Source of the DNA: a virus | IMG/VR virus record: IMGVR_UViG_3300008259_000897 | Span: 1 to 21,543 of that record | DNA: 21,543 nucleotides | Reading direction: 5' to 3' (one strand) | Part shown: positions 4,729 to 19,440 of the stretch, piece after piece | Position numbering within the stretch: the stretch's first letter is position 1 | How the letters are laid out: every line of letters starts with the position of its first letter | The notes under the pieces: model-generated | Told to the model about the DNA's origin: nothing | The model's input: the letters and a program-made list of their open reading frames with translations, nothing else | The model's database searches: none | Translations under genes and position numbers: made by a program

Positions 4729-4896
4729 ATGAAAAGAGATAAAAACTTAAAAATAACAACAAATACCCACCAAATACTTAAAAAGTATTGTGAAGATAAT
4801 GGTCTTAAAATGTTTGCATATACAGAATTATTAATTAAACGTAATTGTATATTAAAACCTCAAAATAAAGATAAAGAAGATATGTATGGTGAATAA
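4729..4896 (+). CDS. Small ribbon-helix-helix-like DNA-binding protein
   Basis: This is a 55-residue protein, starting at the first ATG. An upstream TTG at 4654 would add 25 residues of poor sequence, and I reject it. A short beta-like segment (NLKITTNT) is followed by two helices (HQILKKYCEDNG and AYTELLIKRN), the size and pattern of MetJ/Arc or CopG-type repressors. The KYCEDN stretch closely matches KYCEEN in the small protein at 19577-19738. Its end overlaps the start of endonuclease copy B by 11 bases, so the two are probably co-translated. It may repress its own operon. The fold assignment is from pattern only. Confidence 0.6.
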   Translation: MKRDKNLKITTNTHQILKKYCEDNGLKMFAYTELLIKRNCILKPQNKDKEDMYGE

Positions 4897-6742
4897 AACT
4901 ATTAACTTTATTGATAAAGTTAAGTTAATTCATGGTGATAAATACGATTATTCGTTGGTTAATTATACTAATAATACAACTAAAGTTGAAATAAAATGTT
5001 TTAAACATGGTATTTTTGAACAAACACCAAAAAAACATTTGATTGGTCAAGGTTGTCCAAAATGTGGTATGAATAAAATAACGAATAATGAATATATCAA
5101 TAAAGTTAAGTTAATTCATGGTGATAAATACGATTATTCGTTGGTTAATTATATTGACTCAGTAACTAAGATTGATATAATATGTAAAGAACATGGTATT
5201 TTTAATCAAATACCACATAGTCATTTATCTGGTAATGGTTGTCCAAAATGTGTTGGGATAAATAAAACAACAAGCCAATTTATAGGTGAGGCTAAAATTA
5301 TTCATGGTGATAAATACGATTACTCTCTAGTTGACTATATAGATTCAACAACAAAAGTAAAAATAATATGTCCAGAACACGGAACATTTAATCAAGCACC
5401 AACAAATCATATTTCAAATAAACAAGGTTGTCCTATTTGTGGTAATTTATTAAAAAAAGAAAATACTAATGGTTTTATTAAAAAGGCTAAACAAGTCCAT
5501 GGCGATAAATACGATTATTCTTTGGTTAATTATATTGATAATAAAACTAAAGTAGAGATTATATGTAAAGAACATGGTAGTTTTTTAACAAAACCAAATA
5601 ATCATTTGAGTGGTAGTGGTTGTCCTAAATGTGTTAATAACCAAAAAAAAACTAATAAAAACTTTATCTATTGTGCTAATTCAGTTCATGGTGATAAATA
5701 CGATTATTCTTTGGTTACTTATACCAATAATAAAACATATATTGATATAATATGTAAAGAACATGGGATTTTTAAACAATCACCTAATAATCACGTTTCA
5801 AAAAAACAAGATTGCCCTAAATGTAGTCTTAGGTATGATAAATCAGAAGGTGAAGTTAAAGAATTTATTTCTTCATTAAAATTATTATTTGAAGAAAACA
5901 CTAGAAAAATAATACAACCATTAGAATTAGATATATACATACCATCACATAATATAGCAATCGAATTTGATGGTTTATATTGGCATTCTGAGAAATTTAA
6001 AATAAATAATTACCATCTAAATAAAACAATTGAATGTGAAAAACAAGGTATTCAATTAATTCACATATTTGAAGATGAATGGTTATATAAACAAGATATT
6101 GTTAAATCTAGATTAATGAATATCTTAGGGTTAACACCTATCAAAATATACGGTAGAAAATGTATTATTAAAGAGATATCTTCAAAAGAAGCTAAAGAAT
6201 TTCTTAACAATAACCATATTCAAGGTGGTATTAACTCTAAATATAATATAGGGTTATATTATGATGATGAGTTGGTTAGTCTTATGACATTTGGTTGTTT
6301 AAGAAAATCAATGGGTAATAATTCAATTGAAGACGCATATGAATTATTTAGATTCTGTAATAAACTAGATACAACGGTTATAGGTGGAGCTGATAAATTA
6401 TTAAAATACTTTATAAAGACATATAAACCCAATGAGATTATTAGTTATGCTGATAGAAGATGGAGTCAAGGTCAATTGTATAAAAAATTGGGATTTGAAT
6501 TTATACATAATTCAAAACCAAATTATTTCTATATTAATAATTGTAAACGAGAATATAGATTTAAATACAGAAAAGACGTTCTAGTTAAAGAAGGTTTTGA
6601 TAAAAACAAAACGGAACGTGAAATAATGGAAGAAAGGGGTTTTAATAGAATCTATGATTGTGGTAATAAAAAATATATTTTAAAGATAATACCAACATGT
6701 TATAATAACCAAACCTCCAGCTCCACCAGCACACAACACTAA
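4886..6742 (+). CDS. Vsr-like homing endonuclease with five zinc-ribbon-like repeats, copy B
   Basis: This is the only complete member of the family in the window (618 aa). Residues 1 to about 315 are five tandem repeats of about 62 residues, each with HGDKYDYSLV, an NY(T/I) stretch, C-x-x-HG-x-F, and a final CPKC or CPIC. The nuclease core follows (ELDIYIPS, AIEFDGLYWHSE, then LIHIFEDEW), with Asp, Glu and His in the places expected for a Vsr-type fold. The C-terminal domain ends in NRIYDCGNKKY. The last 15 or so residues (Ser/Thr-rich, ending TQH) have no match in copies A and C and look like read-out into flanking sequence. The ATG overlaps the RHH-like gene. Nucleotide similarity to copy A is high, suggesting recent duplication or transfer. 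Confidence 0.85.
   Translation: MVNKTINFIDKVKLIHGDKYDYSLVNYTNNTTKVEIKCFKHGIFEQTPKKHLIGQGCPKCGMNKITNNEYINKVKLIHGDKYDYSLVNYIDSVTKIDIICKEHGIFNQIPHSHLSGNGCPKCVGINKTTSQFIGEAKIIHGDKYDYSLVDYIDSTTKVKIICPEHGTFNQAPTNHISNKQGCPICGNLLKKENTNGFIKKAKQVHGDKYDYSLVNYIDNKTKVEIICKEHGSFLTKPNNHLSGSGCPKCVNNQKKTNKNFIYCANSVHGDKYDYSLVTYTNNKTYIDIICKEHGIFKQSPNNHVSKKQDCPKCSLRYDKSEGEVKEFISSLKLLFEENTRKIIQPLELDIYIPSHNIAIEFDGLYWHSEKFKINNYHLNKTIECEKQGIQLIHIFEDEWLYKQDIVKSRLMNILGLTPIKIYGRKCIIKEISSKEAKEFLNNNHIQGGINSKYNIGLYYDDELVSLMTFGCLRKSMGNNSIEDAYELFRFCNKLDTTVIGGADKLLKYFIKTYKPNEIISYADRRWSQGQLYKKLGFEFIHNSKPNYFYINNCKREYRFKYRKDVLVKEGFDKNKTEREIMEERGFNRIYDCGNKKYILKIIPTCYNNQTSSSTSTQH
4914..5153 (+). repeat. 54-bp perfect direct repeat within copy B
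   Basis: Bases 4914-4967 and 5100-5153 are identical and lie 186 bases (62 codons) apart, one repeat unit of the protein. Further, less exact copies follow each later unit. The identity at DNA level shows recent unit duplication or gene conversion in the array, and makes unit gain or loss by recombination likely. Confidence 0.85.
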
Positions 6743-13479: not shown

Positions 13480-14556
13480 TTGATTTTATTTAAAATAATT
13501 AGTATATTTAATAAAAATTACAACATTTTGATTAACCTAGATGACTTACGAGGCCATAGTGCACTTTCATTGTTAGAAAACTATGAAGGTATTAACCCAT
13601 ATATACTTAAACTCAAACACGAATACAAAAAAAACAAAAAATTATTACTTACTGACAACCAATCAAAGTATATAGTTCGAAATCACGATAGAGAACCACA
13701 AATGATTAATCGTGTTATAAATATCACAGAATACCTAGGGTTAGAATTACAAAAACAAGACGCTTTATCATTCGTTCCTCAAAGAATTCTTATCGAATTT
13801 ATATTAGCCGAAACTGAAAAGACATTCCATGTATACGGAAAACTAAATAGAAACCAACAATCATCTAAAATGTATTGGCTACCCAAAACACAAGTAACCG
13901 ATGACCCATACTTCGAATCAATCAACGTAGATGTTGATTTTAGCCAATATAACGACATATTAGCTAAACAAGGTAAAAAGCTTTACCAACACCAAGAAGA
14001 AGGTGTTAAATTCCTTCTTTCACGAAATGGATGTATATTAGGAGACGGGATGGGGATGGGAAAAGGCTTGATTACCAGTACTTTAGCTATAACACCTACT
14101 GGGAAAAAGAAATTTGGTGATTTAAAGATTGGTGATAGAATAATTGGTTCAAATGGTAAACCATGTAATATTATTGGTATTTACCCACAAGGATTAAAAG
14201 ATATATATAAGATAACATTTAATGATGGTTATTCTATTACAACAGATGGCTCACATTTATGGGCTGTATCTTCATGTAATTCTGGTGAAAATTCTAAAAC
14301 TAGGGAAAACAAATATAGAACACTTAGTACTGAACAAATGTTGGATGAAAATTTAACTTTAGAACTAAAAGGAACTGGTAGGAATGGAAAAAAACCTTAC
14401 AAGTTTAAAACATACTATAAACAAAAAAACGGTAATTCTAAATGGCAAATTCCAATTGTTAAACCAATTGAATTTGAAAATAACGATATATTACCAATTG
14501 AGAAAATAGACTTGCAATATTACAAGGTCTTATGGATACTGATGGTCATTGTATGA
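13480..14556 (+). CDS. SNF2-type helicase, N-terminal extein plus N-terminal half of intein
   Basis: Residues 1-195 are the helicase N-terminus. They end in a Q-like YQHQEEGVKFLL segment and the P-loop GDGMGMGK. At residue 196 the intein begins, interrupting the P-loop between Lys and Thr; the extein resumes at 14928. Removing the intein and one 32-bp repeat copy gives a helicase of about 632 residues spanning 13480-16273. The likely role is DNA remodelling or fork regression in phage replication or recombination, like T4 UvsW. The start is a TTG; no ATG exists near it although the frame is open from 13447, so the true start is unsure. After residue 347 the frame is wrong: the LAGLIDADG motif is read in the next frame. 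A GIYPQG-x-KDIYKITF beta unit and DGSHLW belong to the intein. Confidence 0.8.
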   Translation: MILFKIISIFNKNYNILINLDDLRGHSALSLLENYEGINPYILKLKHEYKKNKKLLLTDNQSKYIVRNHDREPQMINRVINITEYLGLELQKQDALSFVPQRILIEFILAETEKTFHVYGKLNRNQQSSKMYWLPKTQVTDDPYFESINVDVDFSQYNDILAKQGKKLYQHQEEGVKFLLSRNGCILGDGMGMGKGLITSTLAITPTGKKKFGDLKIGDRIIGSNGKPCNIIGIYPQGLKDIYKITFNDGYSITTDGSHLWAVSSCNSGENSKTRENKYRTLSTEQMLDENLTLELKGTGRNGKKPYKFKTYYKQKNGNSKWQIPIVKPIEFENNDILPIEKIDLQYYKVLWILMVIV

Positions 14557-14927
14557 AATCAAAAAACGATAATTTTAGTGGTACTGAATATTGTACTGTA
14601 TCTGAAAGATTAGCTGATGATGTCGCTGAAATTGTTCATTCATTGGGTGGTATTGTAAGAAAGAAAAGTAAAATTGGTAAATATAAAAAACCAGATGGTA
14701 CTGTTGTTGAATGTAGAAAAGCTTACAGATTAAATATTAAAATGCCAGAACAATTTAATCCGTTTAGATTAAAACGAAAAGCTGTTGAATACAACCCACC
14801 TAAAAAATATAAAATTGGTAGATATATAAAAAACATTGAACCATGTGGTCAAGCTGAGACTGTTTGTATTTCTGTTGATGCGGATGATAAACTATACACA
14901 ACTGAACACGCAATTGTAACGCACAAT
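14065..14927 (+). other. Class 3-type intein in the helicase P-loop, endonuclease degenerate
   Basis: The intein starts GLITSTLAITPTG, aligned with the usual block A but with Gly where Cys or Ser is normal. It ends AIVTHN before an extein Thr. Block B has HLW (Trp at 14260-14262), block F has TVCISVD (Cys at 14865-14867), and Thr at 14919-14921 precedes HN. Together these are the W-C-T set of class 3 inteins, which use the block F Cys instead of residue 1. The class 3 Snf2 intein of Deinococcus radiodurans is a precedent in a similar host protein. The central LAGLIDADG endonuclease has lost its first half: LPIEKID runs almost directly into LLQGLMDTDGH. The junction at about 14500-14520 is also one base out of frame, so the intein is 863 bases. 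Confidence 0.8.
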
Positions 14928-15311
14928 ACGACCCAATCAATTGTTGCCGCTTTAGAAAGTGGTGCTGAAAGGATTCTTATAGTAGCACCATCATCAACAA
15001 AAATAAATTGGGAACGTGAAATCAATGTTTTTTGTGATGATACAGCAATAATCGATGGGAAGAAATTCAACAGTGCTAAGTTTACAATAATTAACTTTGA
15101 TATTCTTAAAAATTTCCATACATTAACTGATGGAAAAAAGAAAAAAGAAGGTGAACCAGAAAAAGTGTTGATTAGAGATTTAGCTAACCAAAAGTTTGAT
15201 TTAGCTATTATTGATGAAGCTCATTACCTAAAAAACCATGAAAGTATTCGTGGTAAGATTATGGTGGATTTATCCGTAAACGTGGTAAGATTATGGTGGA
15301 TTTATCCGTAA
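14532..15311 (+). CDS. C-terminal half of intein plus helicase motifs Ia and II
   Basis: The frame is open slightly upstream of the ATG and reads LLQGLMDTDGH, the second LAGLIDADG motif, so this is a continuation of the previous segment, not an independent gene. The intein ends with HN at 14927. The extein then runs TTQSIVAALESG, ERILIVAPSSTKINWEREI (motif Ia region) and LAIIDEAHYLKNHES, with the DEAH box at 15213-15224. The frame is lost at the 32-bp duplication at 15249-15312, after which IYP and a stop follow. Confidence 0.75.
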   Translation: MDTDGHCMKSKNDNFSGTEYCTVSERLADDVAEIVHSLGGIVRKKSKIGKYKKPDGTVVECRKAYRLNIKMPEQFNPFRLKRKAVEYNPPKKYKIGRYIKNIEPCGQAETVCISVDADDKLYTTEHAIVTHNTTQSIVAALESGAERILIVAPSSTKINWEREINVFCDDTAIIDGKKFNSAKFTIINFDILKNFHTLTDGKKKKEGEPEKVLIRDLANQKFDLAIIDEAHYLKNHESIRGKIMVDLSVNVVRLWWIYP

Positions 15312-15312
15312 A
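15249..15312 (+). repeat. 32-bp tandem duplication that breaks the helicase frame
   Basis: Bases 15249-15280 and 15281-15312 are identical and adjacent. Since 32 is not a multiple of three, the second copy shifts the frame. Removing one copy joins the DEAH-box part to LSVNYNINKVWLLTGTP without any gap. Confidence 0.95.
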
Positions 15313-16273
15313 CTATAATATAAATAAAGTATGGCTACTGACTGGTACACCAGTTGCAAATAGACCAATGGATTTCTTTAATTTATTAAAGATAATTAAG
15401 TCTCCTATTGCGGAAAATTGGAAACACTTTGCTGTTAGGTATTGTGATGGTAGACAGTTCATGAGAACGCTTAAAAATGGGCAAAGAAAGCAAATATGGT
15501 TAACTGATGGTGCTAGTAATCTAGAAGAACTAGCCGCAAAAACCAAAAACATAATTCTTAGACGTTTAAAAACTGATACATTGGATATGCCAGATAAAGT
15601 AGTTACACCAATGTATCATAAATTAGACCTTAATGGATGGAAGATGTATGATTTATTGTGGGATGAGTATATGGCTAAAAGAAAAGCTGAAGGTAAAAAA
15701 TCAATTGAATCACAAAAAGACCTAGTTGAACTTATATTATTAAGAAAATTCATCGCTATGCAAGCTATTCCTTCAACAATAGAAATGGTTGAAAATGCAA
15801 TAGAAATGGGTAGAAAAGTGATAGTATTTACATCGTTTACTGAAGAACTAGAAGTATTAGCTAACCACTTTGGTAAAGTATCTGTTAAACACAACGGACC
15901 AATGACAACCAAAGCCAAACAAAAATCAGTAGATGACTTTCAAAACAATCCAAAGGTTAAAGTATTCGTTGGAAATATTAAAAGTGCTGGTGTTGGTATT
16001 ACACTTACTGAAGCAACCGTTGTTATCTTTAATTCGTTTGATTGGGTTACTGGAAATAATGAACAAGCAGAAGACCGCAGCTATCGAATTGGGCAGAAAA
16101 ATGATGTAAATGTGTATTATCAACTATTTATGGATACAATATCTGTAAGAATGTGGGAAACACTTAAAAATAAAAAAGATATTATAGATACCATAATGGG
16201 TGATAATAAATTAAGTGACGAAGAAATAACCATCAATTTGATGGATGAAATAATGAATGAATTAAATGATTAA
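15293..16273 (+). CDS. SNF2-type helicase, C-terminal RecA-like domain
   Basis: The ATG at 15293 lies inside the second 32-bp copy and is unlikely to be a real start. The segment holds motif III (WLLTGTPVANRPMDFF), a linker with RRLKTDTLDMP, motif IV (VIVFTSFTEELEVLANHF), motif V (VFVGNIKSAGVGITLTEA) and motif VI (EQAEDRSYRIGQKNDVNVYY). This is the full second helicase domain of the SNF2 superfamily, close to the SMARCAL1/HARP type. Without the upstream frame it cannot bind ATP. It overlaps the glutaredoxin gene by 8 bases. Confidence 0.88.
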   Translation: MVDLSVNYNINKVWLLTGTPVANRPMDFFNLLKIIKSPIAENWKHFAVRYCDGRQFMRTLKNGQRKQIWLTDGASNLEELAAKTKNIILRRLKTDTLDMPDKVVTPMYHKLDLNGWKMYDLLWDEYMAKRKAEGKKSIESQKDLVELILLRKFIAMQAIPSTIEMVENAIEMGRKVIVFTSFTEELEVLANHFGKVSVKHNGPMTTKAKQKSVDDFQNNPKVKVFVGNIKSAGVGITLTEATVVIFNSFDWVTGNNEQAEDRSYRIGQKNDVNVYYQLFMDTISVRMWETLKNKKDIIDTIMGDNKLSDEEITINLMDEIMNELND

Positions 16274-16520
16274 AATTTACTCCATAGAAGATTGTCCGTA
16301 TTGCACGGAATTAAAAAATATCCTTACTGAAGAAGGTATAGAATTTATTGATGTTGATGTTAACTTAGAAGAAAATGAAGCTGAGTATAATCAAATACAT
16401 GAAATAACAAAATCCGACCAAGTTCCAATTGTTAAAGTTGGTAAACAATTACTTATACCAAATATTAGTTTTGCAACAATTCGTGAGGCGGCAGATTTAA
16501 CCAAACAATTTTTAGGTTAA
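16266..16520 (+). CDS. Glutaredoxin
   Basis: This is an 84-residue thioredoxin-fold protein. The redox site CPYC is at residues 10-13, and the cis-Pro loop reads SDQVPIVKVG at about 50-59. Glutaredoxins in phages (T4 NrdC is the classic case) supply electrons to ribonucleotide reductase; no reductase gene is in this window. The ATG overlaps the helicase stop, so it is translationally coupled. Its stop overlaps the stop of endonuclease copy C on the other strand by four bases. Confidence 0.9.
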   Translation: MIKIYSIEDCPYCTELKNILTEEGIEFIDVDVNLEENEAEYNQIHEITKSDQVPIVKVGKQLLIPNISFATIREAADLTKQFLG

Positions 16521-16756
16521 ATACTTAATACATATTTCTTATTACCACAGTCGTATATTCTATTTATACCTCTTTCTAACATAATCTGATGTTCTGTTTT
16601 AGATGGGTCAAATCCTTCTTTAACTAGAACATCTTTTCTATGTTTAAACCTATACTCTCTGTTGGTACCTATTATATACCAATAGTTTGGTTTAGAATCA
16701 TGTATATGTGTAAACCCTAATTTCTCATACAACCCACCTTGACTCCATCTTCCCAA
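16517..16756 (-). pseudogene. Homing endonuclease copy C, C-terminal fragment
   Basis: This is the end of copy C in a shifted frame. It starts at RWSQGGLYEKLGF and runs to NRIYDCGNKKYVLSI, matching copies A and B. Compared with copy B, 71 bases are missing at about 16751-16755, which encode the GADKLLKYFIKTYKP to ISYAD stretch. The ATG is accidental. Confidence 0.8.
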
Positions 16757-18098
16757 TAACCGTTGTATTTAATTTATTACAGAATCTAAATAACTCATAT
16801 GAACCTTCTTTAGAAATCCCACCCATTGATTTTCTAAGTGTTCCAAACGTCATCAATGACACTAGCTCATCATTATAATATAACCCTAGTTTGATACTTG
16901 AGTTGACGTTGCCTTGAATATGATTGGTATCTAAAAATACTTTAGAATCTTTTGGTGTTACTTCTCGTATCTCTGTTTTTCTACCATATATCTTACTGGG
17001 TGTCAATCCTAGTATATTTGATAGTCTAGACTTAACTATATCTTGTTTATATAACCATTCATCTTCAAATACATGAATTAATTGAATACCTTGTTTTTCA
17101 CATTCAATTGTTTTATTTAGATGATAGTTTGAAGAGATATATTCTTCAGAATGCCAATATAAACCATTATATTCTATTGCTAGGTTACGTGAGGGTATGT
17201 ATATATCTAATTCCTTACCATTTAATATTAATCTATTATTTAATTCTGTATCTATATTTAATGATTTTAAATAATTATTAACAGAATCTTGACTTAAATT
17301 ATATTTTAAAGCACATTTAGGGCATTTATTTTTTTTACTTAAATGATTATTGGGTGTCTGTTCAAATTCGCCATGTTCTGTACAAATAATTTTAACTTTT
17401 TCTGTTGCAGAAACATAATCAACTAGCGAATAATCATAATTATCTTTATGTGTTTTTTTTGAGTCTTTAATAAATTTTAATTTATCATTAATTAATTTAT
17501 TTTCTTTATAACATTTAATACAACCAACACCTCTTAGGTGAACATCTGGTCTTTGACTAAAAACACCATGTTTAGGACAAATAATATCAACAACAATATT
17601 ATGTTTTTGGTAGTTAACTAGTGAATAATCATAATAATCGTCAAATTTAATATTTGCGTTAGAAATGAATACATCACCCAAATTTAAATTATCTACTTTA
17701 TATTTAAAATAACATTTTTTACAACCTTCACCCCTTAAATGAACACATGGTCTTTGTTCAAACTCACCATGAATTGGACATATTATTTTAATATTGGTTT
17801 GTAAATTAACATACTCAACCAACGAATAATCGTACTTATTACCATGCTTAGCTATAAACGAATTAATCACATCTTCTTTAGGTAATTTATATGATGAATA
17901 TTTTTCTATCTTAGAACATGAAGGACAACCTTGACCATTGCTATGGTCTCTAGCTATCTTTTCAAAAACACCATGTTCTGGGCATACAATAGTAACTTTA
18001 TTACCAACACCATCGTACTCAACCAATGAATAATCATATTTGTTATTATGTTTCAATGAACATTGAGTTATGAATTCTGCTGTTGTTTTTTTTGCCAT
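16725..18098 (-). pseudogene. Vsr-like homing endonuclease copy C, broken by a deletion
   Basis: From the ATG at 18098 there are four repeats with KYDYSLVEY, C-x-x-HG-x-F and G-C-x-x-C. The repeats are more diverged than those of copy B; one has the first His replaced (KFDDYYDYS). The nuclease core (ELDIYIPS, AIEYNGLYWHSE, IHVFEDEW) is complete. The C-terminal domain is cut after TTVIG by a 71-base deletion. The new frame adds KMESRWVV and stops, losing about 100 residues. The nuclease core might still fold. The start is 20-25 bases from the left end of the TnpB element, which separates this gene from small ORFs that were probably upstream of it. Confidence 0.8.
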
Positions 18099-18267: not shown

Positions 18268-19440
18268 ATGTTAATAACTTATAAATATAAACTTAAACCC
18301 AATGATGAACAAATTGTTTTATTAAATAAACATTTTGGGTCAATTCGTTTTGTTTATAATCACTTCTTAAATGAAAGAAAAACAGAATATGAGACAAATA
18401 AAAACTCAATTAATTATTATGATAACGCTAAATCATTAACTGAATTAAAAAAAGATGATAACTATTCATGGTTAAAAGAGATTAATTCTCAGTCTCTACA
18501 AGATTCATTAAAAAACCTAGAAACAGCTTATAAAAATTTTTTTAGATTTAATAAAGGATTCCCCAGATTTAAATCTAAACATGGTAAAAATAGTTTTACT
18601 GTACCACAATCCGTTAAACTAAATAAAAACGAATTATCCATACCTAAGTTTAAAGAACCTATCAAAGTAATAATTGACAGAACTTTTAATGGATTAATTA
18701 AACAATGCACAATATCTAAAACACCAACTAATGAATACTTTGTTTCTATATTAGTGGAAACAGAATACGTTAAATTAGAAAAAACTGGTAAACAAGTAGG
18801 TATTGATTTAGGTATTAAAGATTTTGCTATTACTTCAGATGGTTTTAAATATAAGAATAATAGATATACTAAAACATATGAGAAACAACTTAAAATTGCA
18901 CAACAACATTTAAGTAGAAAAACAAAAGGAAGTAATAGATATAATAATCAAAAATTAAAGGTGGCTACTATTCACAAGAAGATAACCAATTCTAGAATAG
19001 ATAATTTACATAAAATATCCACAGATTTAATTAGAAAATACGATTTAATTGTATTAGAAGATTTAAATGTTAAAGGGATGGTTAAAAATCATAAACTATC
19101 TAAACATATTTCAGATGCGTCATGGGGTAGGTTTGTAAGTATGTTAACTTATAAAGCTGAATGGAATGATAAACAAATTGTAAAGATAAATAGATTCTTT
19201 CCTAGTAGTAAAACATGTAATTGTTGTGGACATATAAATCAAAATCTAACTTTAAATATTAGAGAATGGACTTGTCCATCTTGTAATAAAAAATTAGATA
19301 GAGATTTAAATGCGAGTATTAACATCCTTAAGGAAGGGTATAAAATAATATCGTCAGGGACTGACGATTACAGACGTGGAGATGAAATAAGACCAGCTAC
19401 CGCTGGCACAATCGATGAAACGTCTAAAATTCTTAATTAA
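18268..19440 (+). CDS. tnpB: TnpB RNA-guided nuclease
   Basis: This is a 390-residue protein of normal TnpB length. The N-terminal part (YKYKLKPNDEQ, RFVYNHFLNER) is the usual wedge domain start. RuvC catalytic residues are intact: Asp180 in GIDLGIKDF, Glu264 in VLEDLNVKGM, and Asp346 in DRDLNAS. The zinc finger has Cys317/Cys320 and Cys336/Cys339. TnpB cuts DNA next to a short target motif, using an RNA made from the 3' end of its own gene and the right end, and so restores lost copies of its element. It appears fully functional, in contrast to the broken genes around it. Confidence 0.95.
   Translation: MLITYKYKLKPNDEQIVLLNKHFGSIRFVYNHFLNERKTEYETNKNSINYYDNAKSLTELKKDDNYSWLKEINSQSLQDSLKNLETAYKNFFRFNKGFPRFKSKHGKNSFTVPQSVKLNKNELSIPKFKEPIKVIIDRTFNGLIKQCTISKTPTNEYFVSILVETEYVKLEKTGKQVGIDLGIKDFAITSDGFKYKNNRYTKTYEKQLKIAQQHLSRKTKGSNRYNNQKLKVATIHKKITNSRIDNLHKISTDLIRKYDLIVLEDLNVKGMVKNHKLSKHISDASWGRFVSMLTYKAEWNDKQIVKINRFFPSSKTCNCCGHINQNLTLNIREWTCPSCNKKLDRDLNASINILKEGYKIISSGTDDYRRGDEIRPATAGTIDETSKILN

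Follow-up and report, generated by a model that had tools for sequence, protein, structure and literature searches.

The window, the whole 21,543-nucleotide stretch of viral DNA analysed here (IMG/VR record IMGVR_UViG_3300008259_000897), carries an SNF2 helicase gene that is split over three reading frames and whose Walker A motif is interrupted by an insert at 14065-14927, lying between Lys and Thr (GMGMGK/TTQSIV; the slash marks an insertion point or splice junction throughout, and features are on the + strand unless stated otherwise). The N-extein, with the start of the helicase, occupies 13480-14064 (start codon uncertain) and ends in GDGMGMGK, as indicated by the empty allele L101. It is followed, in the same frame, by the N-terminal part of the putative intein (14065-14501), which comprises splicing blocks A and B with Gly1 where class 1 inteins have their nucleophile (14065-14067, by alignment), Asp at B:7 of the DxxH motif (14245-14247), the partner of Gly1 by family comparison, and His B:10, Leu and Trp B:12 (14254-14262, His at 14254 and Trp at 14260). 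The C-terminal part (14502-14927) is read in another frame and contains a second LAGLIDADG motif (QGLMDTDGH) and blocks F and G, with Cys F:4 (TGT, 14865-14867), the putative class 3 nucleophile and branch point, and Thr G:5, the penultimate His and the terminal Asn (14919-14927). Thr+1 (14928-14930), Thr in 58/58 intein alleles, would be the Walker A Thr once spliced. The C-extein continues with a first stretch of the SNF2 domain (14928-15308; PF00176, E 3.3e-7) and then, at 15293-16273, with the SNF2 C-terminal part and Helicase_C (PF00271, E 6.1e-14; PF00176, E 5.1e-13), so that both families score above cut-off in the C-extein and, together with the Walker A GMGMGK/T, identify the extein as an SNF2 helicase. 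A preliminary description had named this extein and the Lys/Thr insertion point, and both are borne out by alignment, by the Pfam domains and by the empty allele L101. Re-reading of the window likewise found its residues and positions to be right (Gly1, HLW, the block F Cys, Thr-His-Asn and Thr+1), and the 'repaired' intein that it implied agrees with the N- and C-terminal parts indeed lying in different frames. Because the intein halves are broken, Pfam returned weak matches to them and NCBIfam none; PF14528 rose above cut-off once the intein was read in frame.

Other genes of the window include a glutaredoxin gene overlapping the helicase end (16266-16520, +) and a TnpB/OrfB-like protein with OrfB_IS605 and Cas12f1-like TNB domains (18268-19440, +). 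An HGDKYDYSLV-repeat protein occurs in three copies (2-1684, +; 4886-6742, +; 16517-18098, -), with DUF723/treble-clef and Mom-like domains matched by Pfam in the middle copy only; such repeat stretches are numerous in relatives and likely represent a free-standing mobile gene.

The helicase frame is interrupted twice. An intact and near-identical reference is provided by L082 (contig IMGVR_UViG_3300009026_000039), whose frame is open through extein and intein, unlike that of the window. Compared with L082, the window misses 240-241 bp at the junction 14501/14502, including the first LAGLIDADG motif, which shifts the frame in a region that is otherwise 100% identical, and a tandem duplication of 32 bp at 15252/15284 (15252-15313), not present in L082, breaks the helicase again. 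Mutual restoration of the two breaks was ruled out, as the three ORFs occupy three different frames. Conceivably, the window represents a real decaying copy from a population with the 240-bp deletion and the frameshift, in which helicase and intein are both dead: the deletion and the duplication are present in the sequence, and dead class 3 inteins do exist, as exemplified by Arsp-FB24 (PMC3196547). However, a base-by-base comparison of window and L082 over ~3 kb yielded zero substitutions, and similar gaps are found elsewhere on the contig, which is ~100% identical in the rest: the window lacks 148 bp after 7803, 253 bp after 9642 and 71 bp after 16752; these adjoin other broken ORFs and are probable assembly gaps. 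Gaps free of substitutions fit scaffold gaps or contig-end overlaps better than mutation, so decay appears improbable, and stripped scaffold gaps (Ns removed) together with overlapping contig ends are the most likely source of the breaks. Having its frame broken twice, the exact window copy as assembled cannot splice and has a low likelihood of being active; the analysis was therefore carried out on intact relatives, with the window sequence left unmended.

In a multiple alignment that included 15 class 3-type inteins from phages and prophages, Trp, Cys and Thr fell at B:12, F:4 and G:5, respectively, while the W-C-T signature was lacking in eight class 1 inteins of the same alignment. This upholds the class 3 assignment made from the window alone. 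Class 2 was set aside, since Cys F:4 and the WCT triplet indicate class 3. For the intact L082 intein, AlphaFold2 gave a confident model (pLDDT 91, pTM 0.90) with the HINT splicing fold, of which the best structural match over the whole length was PI-SceI (Z 25), an intein that carries a LAGLIDADG endonuclease. Its splicing domain came closest to that of M. smegmatis DnaBi1, a class 3 intein (6bs8; Z 19.0; rmsd 1.4 across 123 residues), with lower scores for class 1 splicing domains such as those of gp41-1 (Z 16.7) and of Npu DnaB (Z 15.2); a PDB sequence search, in agreement with the structure match, also returned inteins as the nearest relatives.

Through IMG/VR scans for relatives, 58 distinct full-length inteins (311-380 residues) were collected and aligned, all at the same insertion site, which answers the proposal to look for this site in related phage helicases. 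His B:10, Cys F:4, Thr G:5, the terminal His-Asn and Thr+1 are invariant (58/58), both LAGLIDADG motifs with their catalytic Asp are nearly invariant in the intact relatives (the window as assembled is without the first), and B:12 is Trp in 52/58 and Phe in 6/58, rare deviations from Trp B:12 being tolerated in the published class 3 set as well. Residue 1 is Ala in 21 inteins, Gly in 11, Cys in 10, Met in 5, Phe in 5, Leu in 3, Ser in 2 and Glu in 1, and is thus not conserved as a nucleophile. The retention of catalytic residues in 58 same-site inteins, along with the structural matches to inteins, excludes chance resemblance. The group can hardly be called rare, as the preliminary description had it: a published count in nr gives 1701 class 3 inteins (PMC7891396), and in one phage collection the present intein has matches in 771 records. 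As a whole, that interpretation is therefore partly supported.

Four alleles, L028, L011, L104 and L105, combine Cys1 and Thr B:7 with Cys F:4, and L028 additionally has a class 1-like Phe at B:12; they are possible class 1/class 3 intermediates. They also allow the reading that some or all members are class 1-like, namely that the alleles with Cys1 and Thr B:7 (TxxH) use Cys1 and that Cys F:4 is incidental. Against this, position 1 lacks a nucleophile in most alleles, that of the window among them, and no allele departs from Cys F:4 or Thr G:5, which makes a class 1-like behaviour very unlikely. By its sequence, the family is assigned to class 3 with high confidence, and the locus is very probably explained by a mobile intein of this class that encodes a LAGLIDADG homing endonuclease and occupies the Walker A loop of an SNF2 helicase of a tailed phage.

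The class 3 splicing pathway is established for other inteins. By analogy, after translation Cys F:4 would, with assistance from His B:10 and Thr G:5, attack the Lys-Gly1 bond, the N-extein would be transferred to Thr+1, and the terminal Asn would cyclise with joining of the exteins. As joining would restore GMGMGKT, the helicase is proposed to be active only after splicing.

Among 80 loci drawn by the helicase C-terminus, blind to the intein, 21 were filled, 56 empty and three cut off. The insertion point is confirmed by the empty allele L101 (DNA ~92-94% identical), which reads GGGAAAA/TCCATA versus GGGAAAA/intein/ACGACC in the filled allele. Between L082 and L101, the only change near the site is in the six bases after the insertion, the next differences lying 39 bp upstream and 60 bp downstream. 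The P-loop position after the insertion is Thr in 53/53 unique intein-bearing exteins but Ser in 33/38 empty alleles, and the association of Thr/Ser with intein presence holds over eight independent pairs (median p 0.016). These comparisons suggest co-transfer of the flanking codons with the intein. Homing would proceed by the endonuclease cutting intein-free alleles and repair copying the intein in, and at least two following codons would be carried along (Ser-Ile to Thr-Thr). The Thr/Ser difference at this position of the ATP-binding loop suggests that, as it spreads, an intein can permanently alter the protein that hosts it.

The intein itself is a mosaic. The alleles L083 and L084 are 95-100% identical in their upstream flanks but drop to 62-88% identity in the intein's first 240 bp, over which L084 resembles L091; the front ~240 bp and an endonuclease segment have been swapped as blocks between alleles. 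A second intein was observed in the same helicase gene at motif VI (EDR/CYRIGQ) in L083, L084, L094, L096, L114 and L119, and without the P-loop intein in L163 and L221; it is of class 1 type, with Cys1, YDL in block F and VHN/C. In the window this second site is empty (EDR/SYRIGQ, 16078/16079), the class 1-type intein being found there in close relatives.

Class 3 inteins in the P-loop of a helicase are already known from phage isolates, in one case from an SNF2 helicase. The helicase intein of Brevundimonas phage vB_BpoS-Domovoi (ON529855; L138), annotated just as 'helicase', shares with the window family the SNF2 domain (PF00176), the Walker A K/T site, W-C-T, LAGLIDADG_3 and Thr+1, but it is ~33% identical, has Met1 with Gly B:7 and belongs to another phage group. 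The Deinococcus radiodurans Snf2 intein is reportedly class 3 and resides in an SNF2-family protein of a bacterial gene, a likeness to the window intein drawn from the literature. The inteins of mycobacteriophage cluster C1 HepA-like helicases (Alice gp175) have W-C-T and the same insertion after the P-loop Lys, but differ in having Ser+1, in their mycobacteriophage origin and in being ~33% identical; Alice gp175 is likely the 'HEL' intein that Kelley et al. 2016 describe for the cluster C1 HepA-like helicase (PMC5050341). M. smegmatis DnaBi1 (PMC6195587) is alike in being a class 3 P-loop intein with DxxH and with the P-loop hydroxyl residue as +1, and shares its helicase with the class 1 DnaBi2 at another position, which parallels the relatives of the window with a second intein; it differs as a mini-intein without endonuclease, with Ala1, in DnaB. 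The helicase intein of Salmonella phage vB_SenS-Ent3 (HG934470; L225) resembles these in its P-loop site (GSGK/), LAGLIDADG and THN, but is not class 3, with Cys1, Leu B:12 and Gly F:4. Given the Domovoi and Alice arrangements, the window intein extends a known group. Both a phage origin of class 3 inteins and their spread, for which the preliminary description saw a possible vehicle here, had already been proposed by Tori and Perler 2011, as cited in PMC3196547.

Within the family, the residue at B:7 follows residue 1. In the first tabulation (n=58), Gly1 was paired with Asp in 11/11 inteins, Leu, Met, Phe or Glu at position 1 with Gly in 14/14, and Ala1 with Cys in 18/21, and the residue 1-B:7 pair ranked third of 64,620 column pairs in the family alignment and first among chain-distant pairs. 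The pairing is also obeyed by distant class 3 inteins in unrelated proteins. In 165 pooled inteins, Gly occupied B:7 in 41/42 with a large residue 1 versus 2/123 others, and Gly1 was paired with Asp B:7 in 20/21; the rule-breakers among the 165 are L073, L266, L269 and L304, and the rule is broken as well by L389, a cellular intein in which Leu1 goes with His B:7. The large-residue rule had been fixed before a new scan, in which 33 inteins <90% identical to the earlier ones had Gly at B:7 in 11/11 with a large residue 1 versus 0/22 others; this set contains no Gly1 and so covers the large-residue rule only, the Gly-Asp half lying outside it. As a statistical pattern among phage class 3 inteins, the coupling is supported with high confidence.

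Such a link could arise from shared ancestry or exchange of the front block rather than from physical contact, and two observations point that way: the front was swapped as a block within the helicase family (L083 versus L084), so that the residue switches are not all independent mutations, and the neighbouring residues 60 and 63 correlate with residue 1, too. Yet with one sequence per 50%-identity cluster the rule still held (12/13 versus 1/52, Fisher 4e-11), a tree built without the intein front gave 17 independent pairs, all in the same direction (p 1.5e-5), and outside the helicase family, in unrelated exteins, no column was tied to residue 1 as strongly as B:7 (0.61 versus a permutation maximum of 0.44). 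The rule also held in the preset set, and B:7 contacts the front junction in the crystal structure of the class 3 AceL NrdHF intein (PMC7891396). We therefore regard ancestry or exchange as an unlikely sole cause of the link. The Cys1-Thr B:7 pairing did not reach significance on the tree, with three independent pairs. On the cellular side, a contig search of genomes returned one relative only (Mesorhizobium), and alphaproteobacterial genomes held few class 3 relatives (7/385 with any match); with so few cellular relatives, the coupling is barely tested in cells.

Physically, residue 1 may pack against B:7, such that bulky residues would need Gly and Gly1 would go with Asp; the full pairing would be bulky residues with Gly, Gly with Asp, and small residues with Cys, Asp, Ser or Thr. 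Class 3 inteins are said to have no conserved residue at B:7, and the A1G mutant of AceL NrdHF, with Ser at B:7, is inactive (PMC7891396), which fits the coupling rule. A literature search found no earlier report of the coupling; Tori and Perler 2011 and Brace et al. 2010, the latter on the D. radiodurans Snf2 intein, were outside its scope, and priority is not established. That residue 1 and B:7 are physically coupled in class 3 inteins by an undescribed rule, and that natural class 1/class 3 intermediates occur at one site, is put forward as a tentative reading, possible rather than probable.

The usefulness of the group lies in its size, its allelic nature and its variation at the very residue that defines intein classes, with B:7 largely predictable from residue 1, though residue 1 is thought free in class 3. 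The coupling supplies a rule for protein engineers changing residue 1 and offers an explanation of the dead A1G. Moreover, these natural sequences make the origin of class 3 from class 1 testable, and if the tentative reading is true, the class switch could be retraced experimentally from natural intermediates.
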